Origin: Anaeroplasmataceae bacterium
GTDB lineage: Bacteria; Bacillota_I; Bacilli_A; Acholeplasmatales; Anaeroplasmataceae
DNA: 57,072 nucleotides
Reading direction: 5' to 3'
Assembly (NCBI GenBank): GCA_029057785.1
Contig: JAIDZC010000029.1
Coordinates: 1 to 57,072 of the forward strand
In this document: in pieces, positions 1 through 44,879 of the stretch
Layout: each line of letters starts with the position of its first letter
Numbering within the stretch: position 1 is the stretch's first letter
Notes under the pieces: model-generated
Seen by the model: only the letters and a program-made list of their open reading frames with translations
Told to the model about the DNA's origin: nothing
Databases searched by the model: none
Translations under genes and position numbers: made by a program

Positions 1-372
1 GGAGATAACATCGGTGTATTACTTCGTGGTATTAACCGTGATCAAGTTCAACGTGGTCAAGTATTAGCTAAACCAAAGTCAGTTACTCCTCATAAGAAGT
101 TTACTGCTCAAGTTTACGTATTATCAAAGGACGAGGGTGGTCGTCATACACCATTCTTCTCTAACTATCGTCCTCAATTCTATTTCCGTACTACAGACGT
201 TACTGGTATCATTACTTTAGCAGCTGGTACTGAAATGGTTATGCCTGGCGATAACACAACTATGACTGTTGAATTAATTCACCCAATTGCTATGGAACAA
301 GGTACTAAGTTCTCTATCCGTGAAGGTGGACATACTGTTGGTGCTGGTTCAGTAGTTGACATTATTGAATAA
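1..372 (+). CDS. tuf: Elongation factor Tu, C-terminal part (5' end outside window)
   Basis: The first 123 codons read as the end of EF-Tu: the end of domain 2 ([17 protein letters not shown]) and all of domain 3, including [22 protein letters not shown] and the closing [15 protein letters not shown]-Tu carries aminoacyl-tRNA to the ribosome in a GTP-dependent way. The GTPase domain lies upstream of the window. The gene is intact to its TAA and is followed 18 bases later by an intrinsic terminator, so it ends its transcription unit. Identification is secure; only the missing 5' part limits the entry. Confidence 0.98.
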
Positions 373-390
373 TCAATAGACAAATAAGTA

Positions 391-424
391 GGGTAATGTT
401 AAAAGCATTGCCCTTTTTGTTTTT
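391..424 (+). terminator. Intrinsic terminator of tuf
   Basis: An 8-bp stem, GGGTAATG with CATTGCCC (one G-U pair), has a 7-base loop and is followed directly by TTTTTGTTTTT. It lies 18 bases after the tuf stop. Confidence 0.9.
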
Positions 425-586
425 ATAATGTATAATACTAATGAATGTATAGTGGATAAAGATTAAAATAAATAAAAGTAATCATTACTCACTTTACATA
501 ATTTCTTTTATTTAGATCTTTGATGAATTAGGTTAAAATAAAAATGAAAGGAATATAATCTTTAACAAATAAATTTTTCGATTTTG

Positions 587-9851: not shown

Positions 9852-9880
9852 TTGACAAGAAATAATTTAACAATTATAAT
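9852..9880 (+). promoter_or_regulatory. Consensus promoter of the fluoride riboswitch
   Basis: TTGACA, exactly 17 bases, TATAAT. Transcription should start near 9887, at the first base of the aptamer. Confidence 0.9.
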
Positions 9881-9886
9881 ATTTTA

Positions 9887-9980
9887 CAGGGAATGATGTT
9901 CTCCCTTGTGTAATACACAAAACCGCTTTTTAAGCTGATGACGTCTATAAGTTTTTTCTTATGGACTCATCGGCTTTTTT
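9887..9980 (+). ncRNA. Fluoride riboswitch (crcB motif) with terminator
   Basis: The RNA begins with GGGAATGATGTTCTCCC, matching the conserved GG-GATGnnGTTC-CC stem-loop of the fluoride aptamer. It continues with AACCGCTTTTTAAGC and TGATGACGTCTA, matching the AACnGCT...AGCTgATGACnnCTA half. A small extra hairpin (TTGTGT-AAT-ACACAA, 9906-9920) is inserted between. The 3' aptamer half is also the 5' arm of a terminator of about 17 bp: GCTGATGA and GTCTATAAG pair with CTTATGGAC and TCATCGGC, followed by TTTTTT at 9975-9980. The two folds exclude each other. Fluoride binding should therefore allow readthrough into the downstream antiporter. Confidence 0.9.
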
Positions 9981-21065: not shown

Positions 21066-24000
21066 ATGGAAAAGATTATATGCTCTAATAAAGAAGATTG
21101 GGCAAGAATAATGGATTCATTTAGAGATAATAATGCTTCATATGAATTTGAAGTGATTATAGATGATCGGCATCAATTATCTAATTTAATTTATTTTTAT
21201 CCCTTATTTTTGAGAAATAACAATATAAGAATGCACATTTCTGTTGCTGATAATTTAGATTCAGAGGAAAATGATATCTTTTATGAAGTAAGTGCTTTAA
21301 TGTTTTTAAGTAGTCATTTGAAAAAAGAAATGAGTAATCTAGTTGCAAATGTTTATTCGTTAAAAACTAAACAAAAATATTCGGAGCGTTCTAAAGTTGT
21401 TTTTAAAACTACATTGCCATTTTTATTTTTTGACTTAGAAAATTTGCAAAAATTGAACGATATTGATGAAGAGTTTATTTTGGATTTAGATAAATTAATA
21501 TTAACATGTAACTATCAAGATTTAAATGAATTTTCTCCATCATTTGTTGTTTCTTATGAATTTGTCAAGATGTATATAAAGAAAAGTATACAAGATTTGC
21601 AAACGAGAAAAAAAGAAAATATTATTAATTCAATAATAGAATCTGGACATGATTTGAATATGCTTGCACTCTTTTTATATGTTTTTTTTATAATGTCAGA
21701 AGAAGAATCTCTTGATGATAATGATATTGTGAATTTAACCGATTTAAAATATACGATACGTAATTTGGCTATAGGTATTCATCAAATATTAGAAAATTCG
21801 TGTAAGCATTCCTGCGGTAAAATAGCCTATTTTTCTTTATCGTATTTAAATTTCGAAAGAAAAAAAAGATTTTTACCTTCTACTAATTATGAGGAAAGTG
21901 TTAGTAATCTTCAAAAGGAAATTTCTTTTTTAAATAATTATGACTTTAACACATATGAAAAGAAGTATCTTTTTATTAGAATGATTGATGATGCAAGACT
22001 AAATGAACCAGGAAAAAACACAAGTGAAGGAATAAGAGAGAAGGAAGGACGTAAAGATTCATTAAGGGAATATTTTGAATTGATATGGGACCCTACAATT
22101 CAAAATCAAGAACAAGAAGATATGTTTTTGGATAGTTCTGATTACATTCCAAGTCCTGTTTCTACAAAATATGGATTGCAAGTTTTTCTTAGGGCTTCTA
22201 AAAAATTAAACATGCAGTGTAGAGTAAACTCGCTTGAATCAAATTTTATAACAGGTTACTATAAAAAATCATTATTTTATGATTCAAATAAAAGTGTAAA
22301 TCAGCATGTTACAGAATATAGTTGTGTTATGCCATTATATTCTTCTTCTATAGGACGAACAAATATAGAAAATGGGTTATGCTATGCCAACAAGATAGAG
22401 TTGATAAATGATTTAGAAGATAGAAAAATAAGAAATATTTCATTTGATACATTATATTACGAAGCAGGGGGGTCAAAAGAAGACAAAGAAGGTATTGTTA
22501 AATATATTACTGAAAAACTATTCAACACTAAACTAAATAATAACCTGCGGGAAGAACTATGTTCTTTTGATATTTTGGAAATTGATATAAGTAATAATAT
22601 TAAAGATAGTGAGATCTTAGTAAAATGTTTAGCGAATTATATGTATGTTTTTGCTAAAATGCAATTACAATGTCTTGTATCTTTGAATTTTATTGATGAT
22701 ACAAAAGATTTTTCTTTATATAGAATATCTGATTTTTTTCAATTCTTGCTAATACTTTCTACTAGAGTACAAGGGCTTTTAAAGGAAAGAAATATAAAGA
22801 TTAAAAACAATGATTTTCAAATTGCTATATACCATAGTATTGAAGGAAATAAAAGACTTATTTCCACTATAGTAGGTATAGATTGGAATATTATCATATC
22901 TTCTTTTATTAATAATTTGCTTTATAGTAATGAATTCTCAAATAAAGATTATTTTAAGCTATATATTGATTATTTAAACCTTGAAAATTCAGTTGCAAAA
23001 AATAATGACATAATGGTTTTCCCTTATGAACTTTATGATAATGGAAAAATAACAAGAAACAGCGCATTTGTAACTAAATTAGATTCTGCTTTAAAGCAAA
23101 ATTATGTTATGCACAAAAATGTGAATGTATTGCTTAAATCGGGGTTATATTTAAATACTTTTTATGAGGCAGAACATATATTTTTAAATCACTATATAGT
23201 TTCAAGATTAGCATTGCTTATTTTTAAAGATTTAATAAAAAGCGATGATTATAAAAAGAATCAAAAAATTTTGATTGCTGGTTATGCAGATTACTCGCAT
23301 CAGTTATGTGAAGCAATTAAAACAATAATAGAGCAACAGGGAAAAGAATGTGAAATCATTTATCTATCAGGTTCAAAAAATCTAACATATAATGAAAAAG
23401 AGGAATATGATAAGAAGAAATGTTATGTAAGTATTCTGCCTATTGGCAGTACACTAAACACATTTCTTAAAATGAATGCTGTACTTAAAAATCGATATAA
23501 AAATACTAGCGCCCTTTCTAAATATATTTTTAATGTTAATTATGCGATAGTTTCTGTTGCTCCTAGAGATGAAAATAATGAGTTTTGGGAGACTATAAGA
23601 AATAATGGAATTTTTTATGAGATAAGATTTAAGACCAACCATGCTGAGTTGGGGGGAATCACCATTAAGAATTTGATTAAATTAGATACAGAATGGTCAA
23701 AAGACAACTATGGAAATGCGGCCTTAACCCATGTGAATGAGAGTTCAACGCTTCCAGACACTATTCATACTATAAAACCAAAAAAACAAAAAGATTTAAC
23801 AGAAAATTTTACAAAGTTTAGATATCTAAAAAATTCTGTTAAATATGGTCATTTTTCATTGGATAATTCGCATTATTCATTTTATATTGATCACCATAAT
23901 ATTTTAGAAAGTAATAAAGATTGCTTAAAAGATGTAGAAACTCAATTAGGTCTAGTGAAAATAGACCCTTTGGCCTATAACATAATAGTATCGCCATTAA

Positions 24001-25061
24001 ATCAAACAAATAATCTTTTTTTAGATGCTGTGGTTCAGGAAGTTTTTAAAAACAATGTTTCTATAATTCAGTTTGATCCTTTTAATACATTTCGCGATAA
24101 TTTTATACAAAAGTACAACTATATTTTGAAGACAATTGATAGAATAGCTAACTCTTCATCAAACACACAAATTAATATTTATTTTGTAGATAATACAATT
24201 ATAACTGGTAAAACTTTTTCACGAGCAAAGGAATTAGTTTATGCTCTTTTAAAAAATACAAAGTATATTCATAATAAGGATTTTTCTCCAAGAATTTTTG
24301 AAAAAGCATTTATTTTTATAAATCGATGCAGTACCAATACACTAGAAGTATTAATGCAAAGTAAAAAGAACTTGTTTATGTATTTAGATATATGTTGTCC
24401 TCATTTTGATACTAATGCAAATGTGTGTCCTGATTGTAAAATCTCTAAAAATTATCAATCTTTAATAAATTTATCTTCTAGTGGCGATTTGATTTTTGCC
24501 TGGACATCTAAAATGAACAAGCATAAGTTAATTTCAATTGATAGAAATCAGAAACTGATTTATACATTGGATGATTTTATAAGACTCTGTTTCACTCATC
24601 TAGTACTTAAAGATATTGAGGGTTTGAGTTCTTTTGATATGACAAAAAGTGATGAACTTTGTTATGAATTTGTAGATGGAAAATTTCAAGATTATGCATC
24701 TAAAGTAAAGGAACTTTATACCTTAGAAAATGATAATCAAGATGAGAAGTTTTTACGGCAATGCTTTATAAAAGTATTTTCAAGACCACTTGTCACAAAG
24801 TATGAACAAATAAAGCAAATCTCTTGGAGATTTATTAGAGCAGAATTACTAAAAGAATTAAATGATAAAACTTCTAAAGAAAAAAATTGTGATTATATAA
24901 TTTTTTTGATTGAAAGACTTTCATACTATGGATCAGATAGTTTAAAAAAAGAATGTAATAAAATAAAAGAATTTAAGAAAGATCTTTCTAAGCAACAACA
25001 AATAAAGATAGATGCGGCTTTTGAGTGGGAGTGGGCATATTCAAAGGGGATAATACGATGA
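21066..25061 (+). CDS. GHKL-ATPase-like / double phosphoribosyltransferase-like protein
   Basis: This 1331-residue soluble protein matches no family I can name. Residues 239-251 (HQILENSCKHSCG) resemble the N-box of GHKL ATPases with N244; IRMIDDAR (about 305-311) and TKYGLQVF (367-374) sit where the G1 and G2 boxes would, but are glycine-poor. Residues 690-693 LKSG with a following YEAE resemble the orotate-phosphoribosyltransferase entry strand, followed by ILIAGYADYSHQL (735-747) and LPIGSTLNTF (791-800). A second, better PRPP-binding loop, FVDNTIITGKTFSRAKEL, is at 1040-1057. A CC-P-H...CPDC cluster (1110-1124) may bind zinc. The ribosome site is GGGAGG. AT content and codon use look higher in A/T than neighbours. 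Function unknown. Confidence 0.85.
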   Translation: MEKIICSNKEDWARIMDSFRDNNASYEFEVIIDDRHQLSNLIYFYPLFLRNNNIRMHISVADNLDSEENDIFYEVSALMFLSSHLKKEMSNLVANVYSLKTKQKYSERSKVVFKTTLPFLFFDLENLQKLNDIDEEFILDLDKLILTCNYQDLNEFSPSFVVSYEFVKMYIKKSIQDLQTRKKENIINSIIESGHDLNMLALFLYVFFIMSEEESLDDNDIVNLTDLKYTIRNLAIGIHQILENSCKHSCGKIAYFSLSYLNFERKKRFLPSTNYEESVSNLQKEISFLNNYDFNTYEKKYLFIRMIDDARLNEPGKNTSEGIREKEGRKDSLREYFELIWDPTIQNQEQEDMFLDSSDYIPSPVSTKYGLQVFLRASKKLNMQCRVNSLESNFITGYYKKSLFYDSNKSVNQHVTEYSCVMPLYSSSIGRTNIENGLCYANKIELINDLEDRKIRNISFDTLYYEAGGSKEDKEGIVKYITEKLFNTKLNNNLREELCSFDILEIDISNNIKDSEILVKCLANYMYVFAKMQLQCLVSLNFIDDTKDFSLYRISDFFQFLLILSTRVQGLLKERNIKIKNNDFQIAIYHSIEGNKRLISTIVGIDWNIIISSFINNLLYSNEFSNKDYFKLYIDYLNLENSVAKNNDIMVFPYELYDNGKITRNSAFVTKLDSALKQNYVMHKNVNVLLKSGLYLNTFYEAEHIFLNHYIVSRLALLIFKDLIKSDDYKKNQKILIAGYADYSHQLCEAIKTIIEQQGKECEIIYLSGSKNLTYNEKEEYDKKKCYVSILPIGSTLNTFLKMNAVLKNRYKNTSALSKYIFNVNYAIVSVAPRDENNEFWETIRNNGIFYEIRFKTNHAELGGITIKNLIKLDTEWSKDNYGNAALTHVNESSTLPDTIHTIKPKKQKDLTENFTKFRYLKNSVKYGHFSLDNSHYSFYIDHHNILESNKDCLKDVETQLGLVKIDPLAYNIIVSPLNQTNNLFLDAVVQEVFKNNVSIIQFDPFNTFRDNFIQKYNYILKTIDRIANSSSNTQINIYFVDNTIITGKTFSRAKELVYALLKNTKYIHNKDFSPRIFEKAFIFINRCSTNTLEVLMQSKKNLFMYLDICCPHFDTNANVCPDCKISKNYQSLINLSSSGDLIFAWTSKMNKHKLISIDRNQKLIYTLDDFIRLCFTHLVLKDIEGLSSFDMTKSDELCYEFVDGKFQDYASKVKELYTLENDNQDEKFLRQCFIKVFSRPLVTKYEQIKQISWRFIRAELLKELNDKTSKEKNCDYIIFLIERLSYYGSDSLKKECNKIKEFKKDLSKQQQIKIDAAFEWEWAYSKGIIR

Positions 25062-27397
25062 ATGAAATTTTATATTTATTAGAAAAAATATTGCCGTTTT
25101 ATGAAAAAGAAGTTAATAATATTATCTGTGAAGAAATTGATGATAATATTAAAAATTTAGAGTGTTTATTAGATAGAAAAACTATGCAGCAAAGAAAGAT
25201 TACTGCTGAATTGTTGAAAAATAATGAAATTAAGGAATCATTATGCTCTATAAAATTAGATTTTCTAAATCTTATTGATAAATCTATTAATCGACTTAAA
25301 TCAAACTCGGAAATATATTTAGGAAATGCTTTTGATCTTGAAGAAATGAAAGAAGAAAAAAAATATATATATTTGAAAATGTTATTTTTAAGCAAGCATA
25401 TGGAGTTTTTAGATGGATGTGAAAATGATAATGTTGAATATTTTTTTATGTGCTTGAATAGGTTTTTAAAAGAGATTTTAGATTACAATAGTTGTATTTT
25501 TCTGCATAATCATAACAAAAAAGTTCTCATTAGTTGGAATATAAGTAATGAGGATTTGAAAGCATTGGATTATGAATCTTTTGAGAATATGAATCGCTCT
25601 GATATTGATAATAGAGATTCTTCAATAGTTTCAATAAAGCATAGTATAAGCGAAACAAAAAAAATTGAGTTTTTCGTTTTTAATTGTAATCAAAATGATA
25701 GAGAAACTATTGAAGAAAAAATAAAAATGTATTTTCAATTAACTAGAGAATTTTATTTGAGATATTATAAAAGACTTTTAAATATAGATAGTAATAGATA
25801 TTCACAAATAGGTAATCATAAGTTTTTTTTGGATGCTACACAATTTATTTTAAAGAATAACTTTAGTTATAATAGAAAATTGAATGATGAAATTCCTAAA
25901 GAAAAGTTAAATATTTTGCATATTAGCGATTGTCATATTAAATCTCAAAATGATTGTGCTTTTGCTCAAAAATTTTTGAATTATATGACTTACAATTTCA
26001 ATAAGGTATATAAATATAATAATGGAATGTTTCAAAGTTGTGATGATTACCCCAAAAAAGATAGTGAGGAAAATAAAGTAATTTTTTTAGAAGATAAAAT
26101 AGATTTTATAGTTGTTACAGGAGACATAATCCAAGCAGGAAAAAGTTCAAAAGATATTTTAGAGAATTACCAAGAGGCTTACAAGCAAATTAGAATAATT
26201 GCACAAAAATTTCTTGGTAATATATGGAGAAATCGTCTTTTAATTATACCTGGGAATCATGATTATGGTATGATAAATGAGTTAGAAATTAAATTGAAAG
26301 ATAGATCTTATGAGTCTTCATCATTAGTGCAAAGTGGAATGACAGAATTTAATAAATTTGCTTTTTTCCATTTGATATTTGATAAGACTATGTTTGATGC
26401 TGATTTAAGCGAGCAGAAAAAGAAAATATACCCTCACAAATTAACTTACAAGATAAAATCTAACTTACAATTATCTTTTTATCTTTTTAATACCTCAGCA
26501 AATGCAAATTTTATTAGAAGTAATAAAGTTACTCTTGCTGATTTTGATGAACATTTGATATCAACCCAGATAGATTTAGATGAAAAAAATATTTTACTAA
26601 TGCATCATACCGAACTTAATCAGATTAATTACTATAGAGATATATTCGTTTCAGATAAATATAAAGAATACATACAAGATGAAGTTATTTTAGGATGTTC
26701 AAGGGATCATTTTGAAGTGATTTCAAAGATTATTAGTCCTGAATCAACGAATTCCCTAAGGGAGAACATGAAAAAACTAAAAGATATACACACTTCTTGT
26801 AATAAAAAATTAGATGAAAGATATTTTAGAAGAAAACAAAGTATTGAAAGTTTAAAGATAGACAATAACTATAAAATAATATTAATTAGTTCACTTGATA
26901 ATATTGTCAGCGAAATAAGAAGATATAATAATAAGCTTTATAATGCTTTCGCTTCTAATTATAATGTAGGACAGAATGTCGATGAAAATGACGTTTTAAG
27001 AGAGGATTATTATAAATTAGAATCATATTTTAAAACTAGTGTTGATGATGACAAAAGATTTAAAGAAAAATTCCAAAGTTGGATTGCAGCCTTTGATTCT
27101 TGTATTGTTCTAGGAGGGCATCAACATTGTCAATCGTTCAAAGAGAAAATAGAGTTTAAAGACAGAAAATCTATTCCTAAATATACCATTTTAGAGGCCG
27201 GTAAAACAATTGATGAATCACAGGGAAATCGTTTCAAATTCAATATTATATCTTATATGGCAGATATAGACAAGTTTGAATACTATAGTTCTGTCCCATT
27301 ATCAGTGAAAGATAAACAGATGTGTATTTTCACTGAAGTTGCAGAAGAAACAAAAGAGGCATTAGATGATTCCTATGATGATGAAGCTAAAGAATGA
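25058..27397 (+). CDS. Calcineurin-like metallophosphoesterase with N-terminal sensor-like region
   Basis: This 779-residue protein overlaps the upstream gene by ATGA; AAAGGGGA supports the start at 25058. The phosphoesterase motifs are complete: D291-x-H293, G355-D356 in VVTGDIIQ, G399-N-H-D402, H516-H517 in LLMHHTE and G687-H-Q-H690. A stretch of about 150 mostly helical residues is inserted between the last two motifs. Residues 1-105 are helical and 115-260 look like a GAF-type fold (an eye judgement). Family members hydrolyse phosphodiesters in nucleic acids or cyclic nucleotides. The tight coupling to the GHKL/PRTase-like protein suggests one two-component system, possibly conflict- or signalling-related. 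Confidence 0.85.
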   Translation: MNEILYLLEKILPFYEKEVNNIICEEIDDNIKNLECLLDRKTMQQRKITAELLKNNEIKESLCSIKLDFLNLIDKSINRLKSNSEIYLGNAFDLEEMKEEKKYIYLKMLFLSKHMEFLDGCENDNVEYFFMCLNRFLKEILDYNSCIFLHNHNKKVLISWNISNEDLKALDYESFENMNRSDIDNRDSSIVSIKHSISETKKIEFFVFNCNQNDRETIEEKIKMYFQLTREFYLRYYKRLLNIDSNRYSQIGNHKFFLDATQFILKNNFSYNRKLNDEIPKEKLNILHISDCHIKSQNDCAFAQKFLNYMTYNFNKVYKYNNGMFQSCDDYPKKDSEENKVIFLEDKIDFIVVTGDIIQAGKSSKDILENYQEAYKQIRIIAQKFLGNIWRNRLLIIPGNHDYGMINELEIKLKDRSYESSSLVQSGMTEFNKFAFFHLIFDKTMFDADLSEQKKKIYPHKLTYKIKSNLQLSFYLFNTSANANFIRSNKVTLADFDEHLISTQIDLDEKNILLMHHTELNQINYYRDIFVSDKYKEYIQDEVILGCSRDHFEVISKIISPESTNSLRENMKKLKDIHTSCNKKLDERYFRRKQSIESLKIDNNYKIILISSLDNIVSEIRRYNNKLYNAFASNYNVGQNVDENDVLREDYYKLESYFKTSVDDDKRFKEKFQSWIAAFDSCIVLGGHQHCQSFKEKIEFKDRKSIPKYTILEAGKTIDESQGNRFKFNIISYMADIDKFEYYSSVPLSVKDKQMCIFTEVAEETKEALDDSYDDEAKE

Positions 27398-27556
27398 TAA
27401 TGGGAATGATGGTTTAGCTTATGCTCATTAGTATTTTAGGCACTTTCAATATGATAAAGATTATCAAAAAATTTACTTTTTTATATAAGAATATAGTGTG
27501 CAAGTTACCTAAAGAATAAAAAGTAATAGACTTTAGGTGAAATGTTAAAAAACGTA
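27398..27556. other. Intergenic stretch with an inverted repeat
   Basis: After the phosphoesterase stop no gene or clear terminator is seen. ACCTAAAG (27508-27515) and CTTTAGGT (27531-27538) form an 8-bp perfect inverted repeat with a 15-base gap, not followed by Ts on the plus strand. The rest is AT-rich. Confidence 0.5.
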
Positions 27557-27585
27557 TTGACAATATATTATATATGTAATATAGT
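27557..27585 (+). promoter_or_regulatory. Promoter of the pemK-like leader RNA
   Basis: TTGACA, 17 bases, TATAGT. Transcription should begin near 27592. Confidence 0.85.
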
Positions 27586-27591
27586 AAAGGT

Positions 27592-27735
27592 GAGCTAGTA
27601 AAAGTCTATAAGTAAGAACTCTACTTCTTATAGATGGCTAAGACAATTGAATGTAGTAGAGTGGTTTTCCGAATGGATAGCGTGATTGAAAATGATGAGT
27701 ACAAATGTACTCTCAAATTTGATCACGCTTTTTTG
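27592..27735 (+). ncRNA. Structured leader RNA with terminator upstream of pemK-like gene
   Basis: The leader can form TCTATAAG...CTTATAGA (27605-27612 with 27626-27633). Its loop sequence ACTCTACT (27619-27626) is exactly complementary to AGTAGAGT (27655-27662), giving an alternative stem or pseudoknot. It ends with a long terminator: AGCGTGAT with ATCACGCT, inner GAGTAC/GTACTC, then TTTTTT, only 18 bases before the ATG. This is an attenuator layout. A pemK RNA motif in front of pemK genes in Firmicutes has been reported from comparative genomics; I recall it but cannot align to it here. Confidence 0.75.
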
Positions 27736-27752
27736 TTTGAAAGGGAGATAAG

Positions 27753-28241
27753 ATGAAAAAGAGATATTCTGACTATGTGAATCCAAAATCTGAAAGGTTA
27801 AATAGAATACCAGTAACTATAGGTTCTGTTATTGTAGCTTATTTATTTGATTATGAAAGATTACCTAAATATGTAGAGGATCATAAGAGAGAATCTGTGG
27901 TGGTACTTAAGGATATCAACGATGAACTAGGAGTAGTGTATATACATGGAATAAATAGTATTGATGGGAAATCAAGACATAAGAAGAAGGAAGCAGGACT
28001 ATGGGAAGAGATTGAGAAGAATGGGCAAAGGGTATTTGTAGATATCAATATACGAACTATAGATGTAGAAGGTAAACCAATTAAACAGGGAGCCAAGTTT
28101 AAGAATACGGGTATATTGTTAGAGCCAAAACAGCTTGCAAAGGTAGAGGATCATATATATAAGACTAAAGGTCGTAGCCATAGCGTTAGAAACCAAATTA
28201 CGCGAAATAAAGAAATTAAAGCAAAAAAAAATAAGGCTTAA
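27753..28241 (+). CDS. PemK/MazF-like toxin-type protein
   Basis: This 162-residue basic protein shows the PemK/MazF strand pattern: IGSVIVAYLF, then RESVVVLKDINDELGVVYIHG, and the later FVDINIRTID followed by an ILLEPKQLAKVEDHI helix. PemK/MazF proteins are RNases acting on mRNA. No protein antitoxin gene is adjacent on either side, so the usual type II partner is missing. Control by the leader RNA is the likely alternative. The C-terminus (about 135-162) is very lysine/arginine-rich. AAGGGAG precedes the ATG. The family call is by eye from strand motifs. Confidence 0.7.
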   Translation: MKKRYSDYVNPKSERLNRIPVTIGSVIVAYLFDYERLPKYVEDHKRESVVVLKDINDELGVVYIHGINSIDGKSRHKKKEAGLWEEIEKNGQRVFVDINIRTIDVEGKPIKQGAKFKNTGILLEPKQLAKVEDHIYKTKGRSHSVRNQITRNKEIKAKKNKA

Positions 28242-28255
28242 ACCTTATTTTGACT
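28229..28255 (+). terminator. Intrinsic terminator of the pemK-like gene
   Basis: AATAAGG pairs with CCTTATT (loop CTTAAA region), followed by TTGACTTTT. The stem overlaps the stop codon. Bases 28256-28360 show nothing else. Confidence 0.7.
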
Positions 28256-28360
28256 TTTCAACCATATGTCGTTTCCACCCAAGCCTAGGCAATTTATATT
28301 GTAGCATAGTGAATTTTTAATGTCAATTCTAATCTTCGAAATTTAAAATATTTGAATTTT

Positions 28361-43384: not shown

Positions 43385-43436
43385 AATTTGAAAACTTTCT
43401 ATGATAGTAAATCATGGCGGAAGGAGTGTATTTAGC

Positions 43437-44751: not shown

Positions 44752-44757
44752 TATAAT
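44752..44757 (+). promoter_or_regulatory. Promoter -10 of the SRP RNA
   Basis: TATAAT ends 5 bases before the first base of the RNA stem. TTGAAA at 44726 is 20 bases away, longer than usual; the -35 is therefore uncertain. Confidence 0.6.
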
Positions 44758-44762
44758 GTAGT

Positions 44763-44846
44763 CCTTAATCAATTATGTACGGTGAACCAGGTCAGGACCG
44801 GAAGGTAGCAGCCTTAAGCTAGTAGGTAATGTGGTTAAGGCGTTTT
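44763..44846 (+). ncRNA. ffs: Signal recognition particle RNA, small bacterial type
   Basis: The universal helix-8 core GGTCAGGACCGGAAGGTAGC lies at 44790-44809. The ends CCTTAA (44763) and TTAAGG (44835-44840) pair, and GTTTTTATTTT follows. Length of about 80 bases means the short 4.5S form without the Alu domain, as opposed to the long Bacillus form. It works with Ffh to target membrane proteins. Confidence 0.95.
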
Positions 44847-44879
44847 TATTTTACAATTTAGATATTTTTTGCCAAACAA

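Follow-up and report, generated by a model that had tools for sequence, protein, structure and literature searches.

A possible RNA-protein toxin-antitoxin module with a convergent structured RNA in an Anaeroplasmataceae bacterium

Results

The locus described here lies in a window of 57,072 nucleotides, the whole stretch of DNA analyzed, which corresponds to contig C22 in the 1.76-Mb genome of a gut bacterium of the Anaeroplasmataceae. It consists of a putative toxin gene, a leader with its own promoter and intrinsic terminator ahead of the gene, and a structured RNA that converges on the gene from the opposite strand (Table 1). An earlier sequence-only reading of this DNA had described a PemK-like toxin behind an attenuator-type leader, and had overlooked the minus-strand promoter that sits directly behind the toxin gene. 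The convergent RNA and the end of the toxin gene meet in a common terminator. Upstream, positions 21066-27397 encode a 1331-aa protein that matches no family and one of 790 aa that has a calcineurin-like phosphoesterase domain, followed at 27400-27510 by what appears by eye to be the remnant of a phosphoesterase gene; L013 and L040 have this gene intact at the corresponding position. Elsewhere in the window, Rfam models match a fluoride riboswitch (9880-9954), an L31 leader (43399-43426), and the SRP RNA (44756-44852).

Table 1. Features of the toxin locus and of related loci.
Feature	Position	Strand	Basis or remark
Leader promoter, sigma-70 type, TTGACA-17-TATAGT	27557-27585	+	consensus match 11/12
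Leader RNA core	27593-27678	+	25-locus alignment, pair counts
Leader P1	27593-27597 with 27635-27639	+	alignment
Leader P2 hairpin	27605-27634	+	alignment
Leader pseudoknot	27619-27624 with 27656-27661	+	alignment
Leader P3	27668-27670 with 27675-27677	+	alignment
Leader intrinsic terminator	27680-27735	+	MFE fold; terminator at 27/27 leader loci
Putative toxin gene, predicted MazF/PemK fold, 162 aa	27753-28241	+	ORF list, dN/dS, predicted fold
Convergent RNA terminator	28221-28246	.	overlaps toxin stop codon and last codons
Convergent small RNA, ~70 nt, start inferred	28221-28292	-	folds, alignment
Convergent RNA P1	28285-28281 with 28256-28252	-	alignment
Convergent RNA P2	28273-28271 with 28262-28260	-	alignment
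Convergent RNA conserved 8-nt loop	28270-28263	-	alignment
Convergent RNA promoter, TTGACA-17-TACAAT, TG ahead of -10	28298-28326	-	promoter scan
Toxin-less convergent RNA copies, G007 element	L039/L108 272-325 and 1227-1284
Loci of the 151-153-aa and 112-115-aa families	L082, L083, L086, L089, L153, L154		leader read before first four

Searches with the 162-aa protein against Pfam, PHROGs, and PADLOC returned noise only, and NCBIfam gave no match. The Pfam PemK_toxin family (PF02452) matches neither this ORF nor, at E 0.001, anything else in the genome of the window (G000). Sequence relatives were not found in viral contigs or in phage and plasmid records, and a PDB sequence-profile search found nothing. 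A class-wide search outside the order gave a single match (E 0.009) inside a 1523-aa frame, which we took as chance. Within the order, relatives are present in 5 of 160 genomes as nine intact copies and a broken one, the latter in G004. The intact copies are that of the window, two in tandem on C36, three in tandem in G003, and one each in G008, G004, and G023; the other eight are 49-76% identical to the toxin of the window. The dN/dS values are 0.18-0.43 (12 pairs printed, one saturated).

The fold of the protein was predicted with AlphaFold from a trimmed seven-sequence alignment covering residues 15-140. The best model reached a pLDDT of 82.5 and a pTM of 0.71 and was the only confident one of five, the remaining four having pLDDT values from 60.5 to 36.5; a model of the full-length protein (pLDDT 42.5) was set aside. 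In a comparison with VIA-align, all 50 matches listed were of the MazF type or CcdB (Z 9.5 to 8.0, rmsd 2.6-3.8 over 90-103 aligned residues). A ToxN/CptN entry was not among the matches listed, an absence that carries no evidential weight. The top rows of a Foldseek search against the PDB were MazF-mt1, with a best E value of only 0.086, and the best three rows against viral structures were PemK/MazF proteins, with a best E value of 2.5e-3. Taken together, the fold is predicted to be MazF/Kid/CcdB-like, as the PemK-like protein of the sequence-only reading would have it, although comparison at the level of sequence does not reach the PemK family. The protein would probably be an endoribonuclease, and its predicted fold and genetic context suggest that it is toxic.

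A protein antitoxin-like ORF does not flank the toxin gene among ORFs of at least 40 aa in the window, nor in the neighborhoods of the other copies. The earlier claim that no antitoxin is adjacent thus holds for proteins but not for RNA, since a structured RNA adjoins on the other strand. An AbrB-like gene follows the toxin copies of C36 and G008; it was considered as an antitoxin and rejected, as it is part of an hsp20 locus that occurs without the toxin.

The leader starts from a promoter of the consensus type, as had been read from the sequence, and only 10 sites on both strands of the 57 kb are as good. Its folding beats 200 of 200 shuffles (z -4.4). The sequence-only reading had proposed two competing stems, and both exist: TCTATAAG/CTTATAGA is the P2 hairpin, and ACTCTACT/AGTAGAGT is a pseudoknot formed by the P2 loop. 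The two need not compete, however, and are kept together across the leader loci. A DNA search with the leader in 11 genomes of the genus gave 34 rows, partial ones included, from 7 genomes, and 25 of these loci were used to build a covariance model from which the pseudoknot was left out. This model matches 30 places in 8 of the 160 genomes of the order, all within one genus. In the 25-locus alignment, 97.1% of the pairing cells are paired versus 92.9 when shuffled, 27 cells are changed on both sides versus 7.6, and the covariation is 0.191 versus 0.110 for shuffled and at most 0.075 for slid alignments. The pseudoknot contributes one two-sided change only, and half of its pairs are invariant. 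An intrinsic terminator follows the leader at all 27 loci inspected (the 25 plus two from the covariance model search). In the window, the MFE fold of this terminator is a long stem with a run of six T behind it, and the terminator ends 18 bases before the ATG, just as first described; a simple terminator scanner did not list it and gave only a small minus-strand site inside its span. An attenuator of the uORF type was rejected, because the frame from the ATG at 27634 has a stop in the G003 copy.

The pemK RNA motif, likewise a structured RNA ahead of a PemK-like gene, resembles this arrangement, and membership in it had been suggested together with an Infernal/Rfam check. Our cmscan of the leader region returned a single chance snoRNA match (E 6.5) from an Rfam library that presumably contains the pemK model, and a scan of the other copies gave no match at the leader or convergent-RNA positions. 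The leader here differs from the pemK motif in this lack of a match and in preceding many other types of gene, and the suggested membership is not borne out. The two observations named beforehand as counting against the sequence-only reading turned out otherwise, as relatives conserve the leader and a PemK-like fold is predicted for the protein.

The first genes downstream of the 27 leader loci are diverse. They comprise the toxin (four loci), a 151-153-aa gene (two), a 112-115-aa gene (two), RhuM-Fic (four), YhcG/DUF1016 (two), a 75-aa HTH gene (six), AbrB-Hsp20 (two), a RecQ-like helicase (one), and, at one each of the other four loci, a deleted toxin, a remnant followed by a DAC-like gene, an 83-aa ORF with a DUF4143 ATPase behind it, and an ORF of at least 191 aa. 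A membrane-protein-like gene stands behind the 75-aa HTH gene at five of six loci, and the one that was scanned scores slightly below the Pfam cut-off for S_4TM. In a family scan with one representative per main type, PADLOC models of phage-defense candidates match the RhuM, YhcG, and DUF4143 types. Based on the variety of these downstream genes, the leader looks like an attenuator common to defense-type genes of the genus. If so, a single attenuator before toxins, nucleases, Fic proteins, and membrane effectors would constitute a common defense-type switch, whose trigger could be searched for directly.

The order of promoter, pseudoknotted RNA, terminator, and toxin is also that of a type III system, in which the leader itself would be the RNA antitoxin, as the sequence-only reading had offered as an alternative. 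We consider this very improbable despite the matching layout and the pseudoknot. The same leader precedes at least seven unrelated gene types. It stands before four toxin arrays and a deleted toxin copy, but G004 and G023 carry the toxin and the convergent RNA without a match to the leader model. Direct repeats of at least 14 bases were found in neither the leader nor the convergent RNA, in agreement with the earlier remark that tandem repeats are not seen. It is thus the convergent RNA, rather than the leader, that accompanies the toxin.

A strong promoter, a short structured RNA, and a terminator that overlaps the end of the gene lie on the minus strand behind all ten toxin copies, intact or broken; the promoters of the two RNAs in G023 have a 16-base spacing (TTGACT-16-TAGAAT and TTGACT-16-TAAAAT). 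From its conserved ACGUUAG-like start, the RNA continues through P1, a left part that varies, P2 with a GAYAUACG-like loop, an A-rich part, and P1'. All 13 sequences form a P1 of at least four pairs, against a mean of 4.8 and a maximum of 11 sequences in 5000 permutations, and P2 forms 32 of 39 pairs (5000 permutations: mean 23.7, max 31). In alignment A8, which was fitted to a model carrying the P1/P2 structure from a partly hand-made alignment, the covariation is 0.624 versus 0.227 ± 0.038 for shuffled and at most 0.107 for slid alignments. G-U pairs in P1 (the window and G007b) and in P2 (C36a) can form on the minus strand only, which points to the minus strand as the RNA strand. A pseudoknot was not seen in the folds or the alignment.

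The RNA (28292-28221) is complementary to the end of the toxin ORF (which ends at 28241), and in the tandem toxin arrays each convergent RNA also faces the 5' region of the gene that follows. Both features would suit a type I module, in which the RNA would act as an antisense on the 3' end of the toxin mRNA, causing decay of the message or blocking it. Type I systems of Clostridioides difficile, such as CD2517.1-RCd8, include toxin and antitoxin genes that converge and overlap (PMC6563280). The covarying stems and the conserved loop would be unneeded for perfect antisense pairing, however, RNA copies persist after loss of the gene (see below), and a 162-aa protein with a MazF-like predicted fold is unlike type I toxins, which are usually shorter than 60 aa and hydrophobic (PMC6563280). 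On balance, we regard the type I explanation as rather unlikely.

The convergent RNA occurs at 15 places, 13 in the genus and two in G023, and 10 of these follow a toxin copy. One of the RNAs in G023 lies behind a C-terminal toxin remnant. In G007:C33 (L040 5964-6320), the leader and the convergent RNA are kept around a toxin ORF that has lost its middle part, and in G008, the convergent RNA remains at the site of the window while the toxin gene is gone. In G007, which contains no intact toxin, two further convergent RNAs with good promoters are located on an integrase-bearing element beside tRNA-Lys that carries no toxin gene; one of them is convergent to a methylase-like gene, so labeled from a sequence motif. 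Strong matches (E <1e-4) are confined to 6 of 160 genomes, including all five with the toxin. The toxin is thus present in five of six genomes with the RNA, the sixth being that with the toxin ORF lacking its middle, and in 0 of the 154 others (Fisher p 7e-9, a value that ignores the relatedness of the species). Marginal matches of the R2 model occur in G027, G124, G075, and G012 (E 0.008-0.04).

The convergent RNA could instead be a partner of another kind, e.g., a regulator or cofactor of a protein that is not toxic, since MazF and CcdB share one fold with different activities and four family libraries gave no match beyond noise. We find this improbable, as the matching fold group is made up of toxins, the small genes stand behind a leader common to defense-type genes, and gene copies are broken or deleted while the RNA is retained.

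Two further small-protein families were found behind the leader (Table 1). A TTGACA-17 promoter lies behind the 112-115-aa gene on the opposite strand in four of four close members, the distant members L155 and L157-L159 having been left out of this reading. By eye and from single folds, the outer and middle stems of the corresponding RNA vary in sequence between members with pairing kept. The 151-153-aa gene likewise has an opposite-strand convergent RNA behind it in two of two sequences, read by eye. The three convergent RNAs are mutually unlike. Profile comparison among the three protein families, and of each with PemK, gave nothing significant (best E value 0.02, for the 153-aa family against the 112-aa family), and we therefore claim neither a kinship of the three families nor the fold of the other two.

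Discussion

The sequence evidence is compatible, with about an even chance in our judgment, with a toxin-antitoxin module of a type III-like, RNA-protein kind whose antitoxin is a convergent single-unit RNA. The protein of predicted MazF/Kid/CcdB fold would be the toxin, probably an endoribonuclease, and the ~70-nt RNA from the strong opposite-strand promoter would be the probable antitoxin. The RNA would fold into P1, P2, and the conserved 8-nt loop and then neutralize the protein by binding, as type III antitoxins do, and not solely by pairing with the mRNA. The conservation of the fold and of the loop and the existence of gene-less RNA copies are our reasons for placing its action on the protein. 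Transcription of the toxin would start near 27592 and be held down by the pseudoknotted leader and terminator that the defense-type genes of the genus appear to share, until some signal lets the polymerase read through.

This RNA-protein reading is favored by the constant arrangement behind 10 of 10 toxin copies, the strong covariation of P1 and P2, the co-occurrence among the 160 genomes, the toxin-less RNAs with good promoters on the integrase-bearing element, and the separate convergent RNAs of the four close 112-aa and two 151-153-aa genes. Against it stand the overlap between RNA and toxin gene at the gene's 3' end, which is a convergent type I layout, and the RNA having neither tandem repeats nor a detected pseudoknot, both of which are general in type III antitoxins. 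The single confident AlphaFold model in five, obtained after trimming to residues 15-140, the Foldseek PDB E value of 0.086, and the partly manual P1/P2 alignment, with A8 fitted to a model of the same structure, also weigh on that side.

MazF-fold toxins have protein antitoxins in type II systems and upstream repeat RNAs in type III systems, and par and TxpA/RatA are convergent type I systems. The module shares with the MazF/PemK type II systems the predicted fold but differs in lacking an adjacent protein antitoxin and, in this genome, any match to Pfam PemK_toxin. As in the type III systems ToxIN, CptIN, and TenpIN, a toxin of predicted MazF/Kid/CcdB fold is accompanied by a structured RNA in place of a protein antitoxin, and an intrinsic terminator precedes the toxin ORF here too. 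Type III toxins have the MazF/Kid/CcdB fold, which favors the RNA-protein reading, their antitoxins are RNAs, and phages carry 'pseudo-ToxI' RNAs (PMC5086642). The toxin-less RNAs on the G007 element parallel the latter and, by analogy, are possibly antidote-only RNAs. In contrast to type III, the toxin-linked RNA here lies downstream on the opposite strand with its own promoter, not upstream in the same operon; it forms one unit where type III antitoxins have tandem repeats, with no pseudoknot found; and the toxin has no sequence match to any family searched. Because an upstream same-operon antitoxin and tandem repeats are both lacking, we do not file the module under type III, though it may work alike. 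It resembles convergent type I systems, such as CD2517.1-RCd8 of C. difficile, in that the RNA overlaps the end of the toxin gene. It differs in that the RNA fold appears under selection and in that the protein has 162 aa and a MazF-like predicted fold instead of being a short hydrophobic peptide; the module is not type I by the kind of toxin.

A broader proposal, which we put forward tentatively, is that several families of MazF-fold toxins each have a convergent, single-unit, folded RNA antitoxin acting on the protein, and that one pseudoknot attenuator, common to the genus, governs them all together with much of the defense repertoire, with the toxin-less RNAs on mobile elements as antidotes. 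This would be a new architecture; the terms we searched in the literature returned no paper on it. If true, MazF-fold toxins would have a third kind of arrangement, with a folded convergent RNA next to several small-toxin families, and this would explain some MazF-like genes that seemingly have no antitoxin. Beyond the close members of these families, the 112-aa family has a distant relative of 105 aa in a different family of the order (L156 ~122-440, minus strand); our script finds no -35/-10 pair for it, but a hairpin RNA-like segment lies behind the gene.
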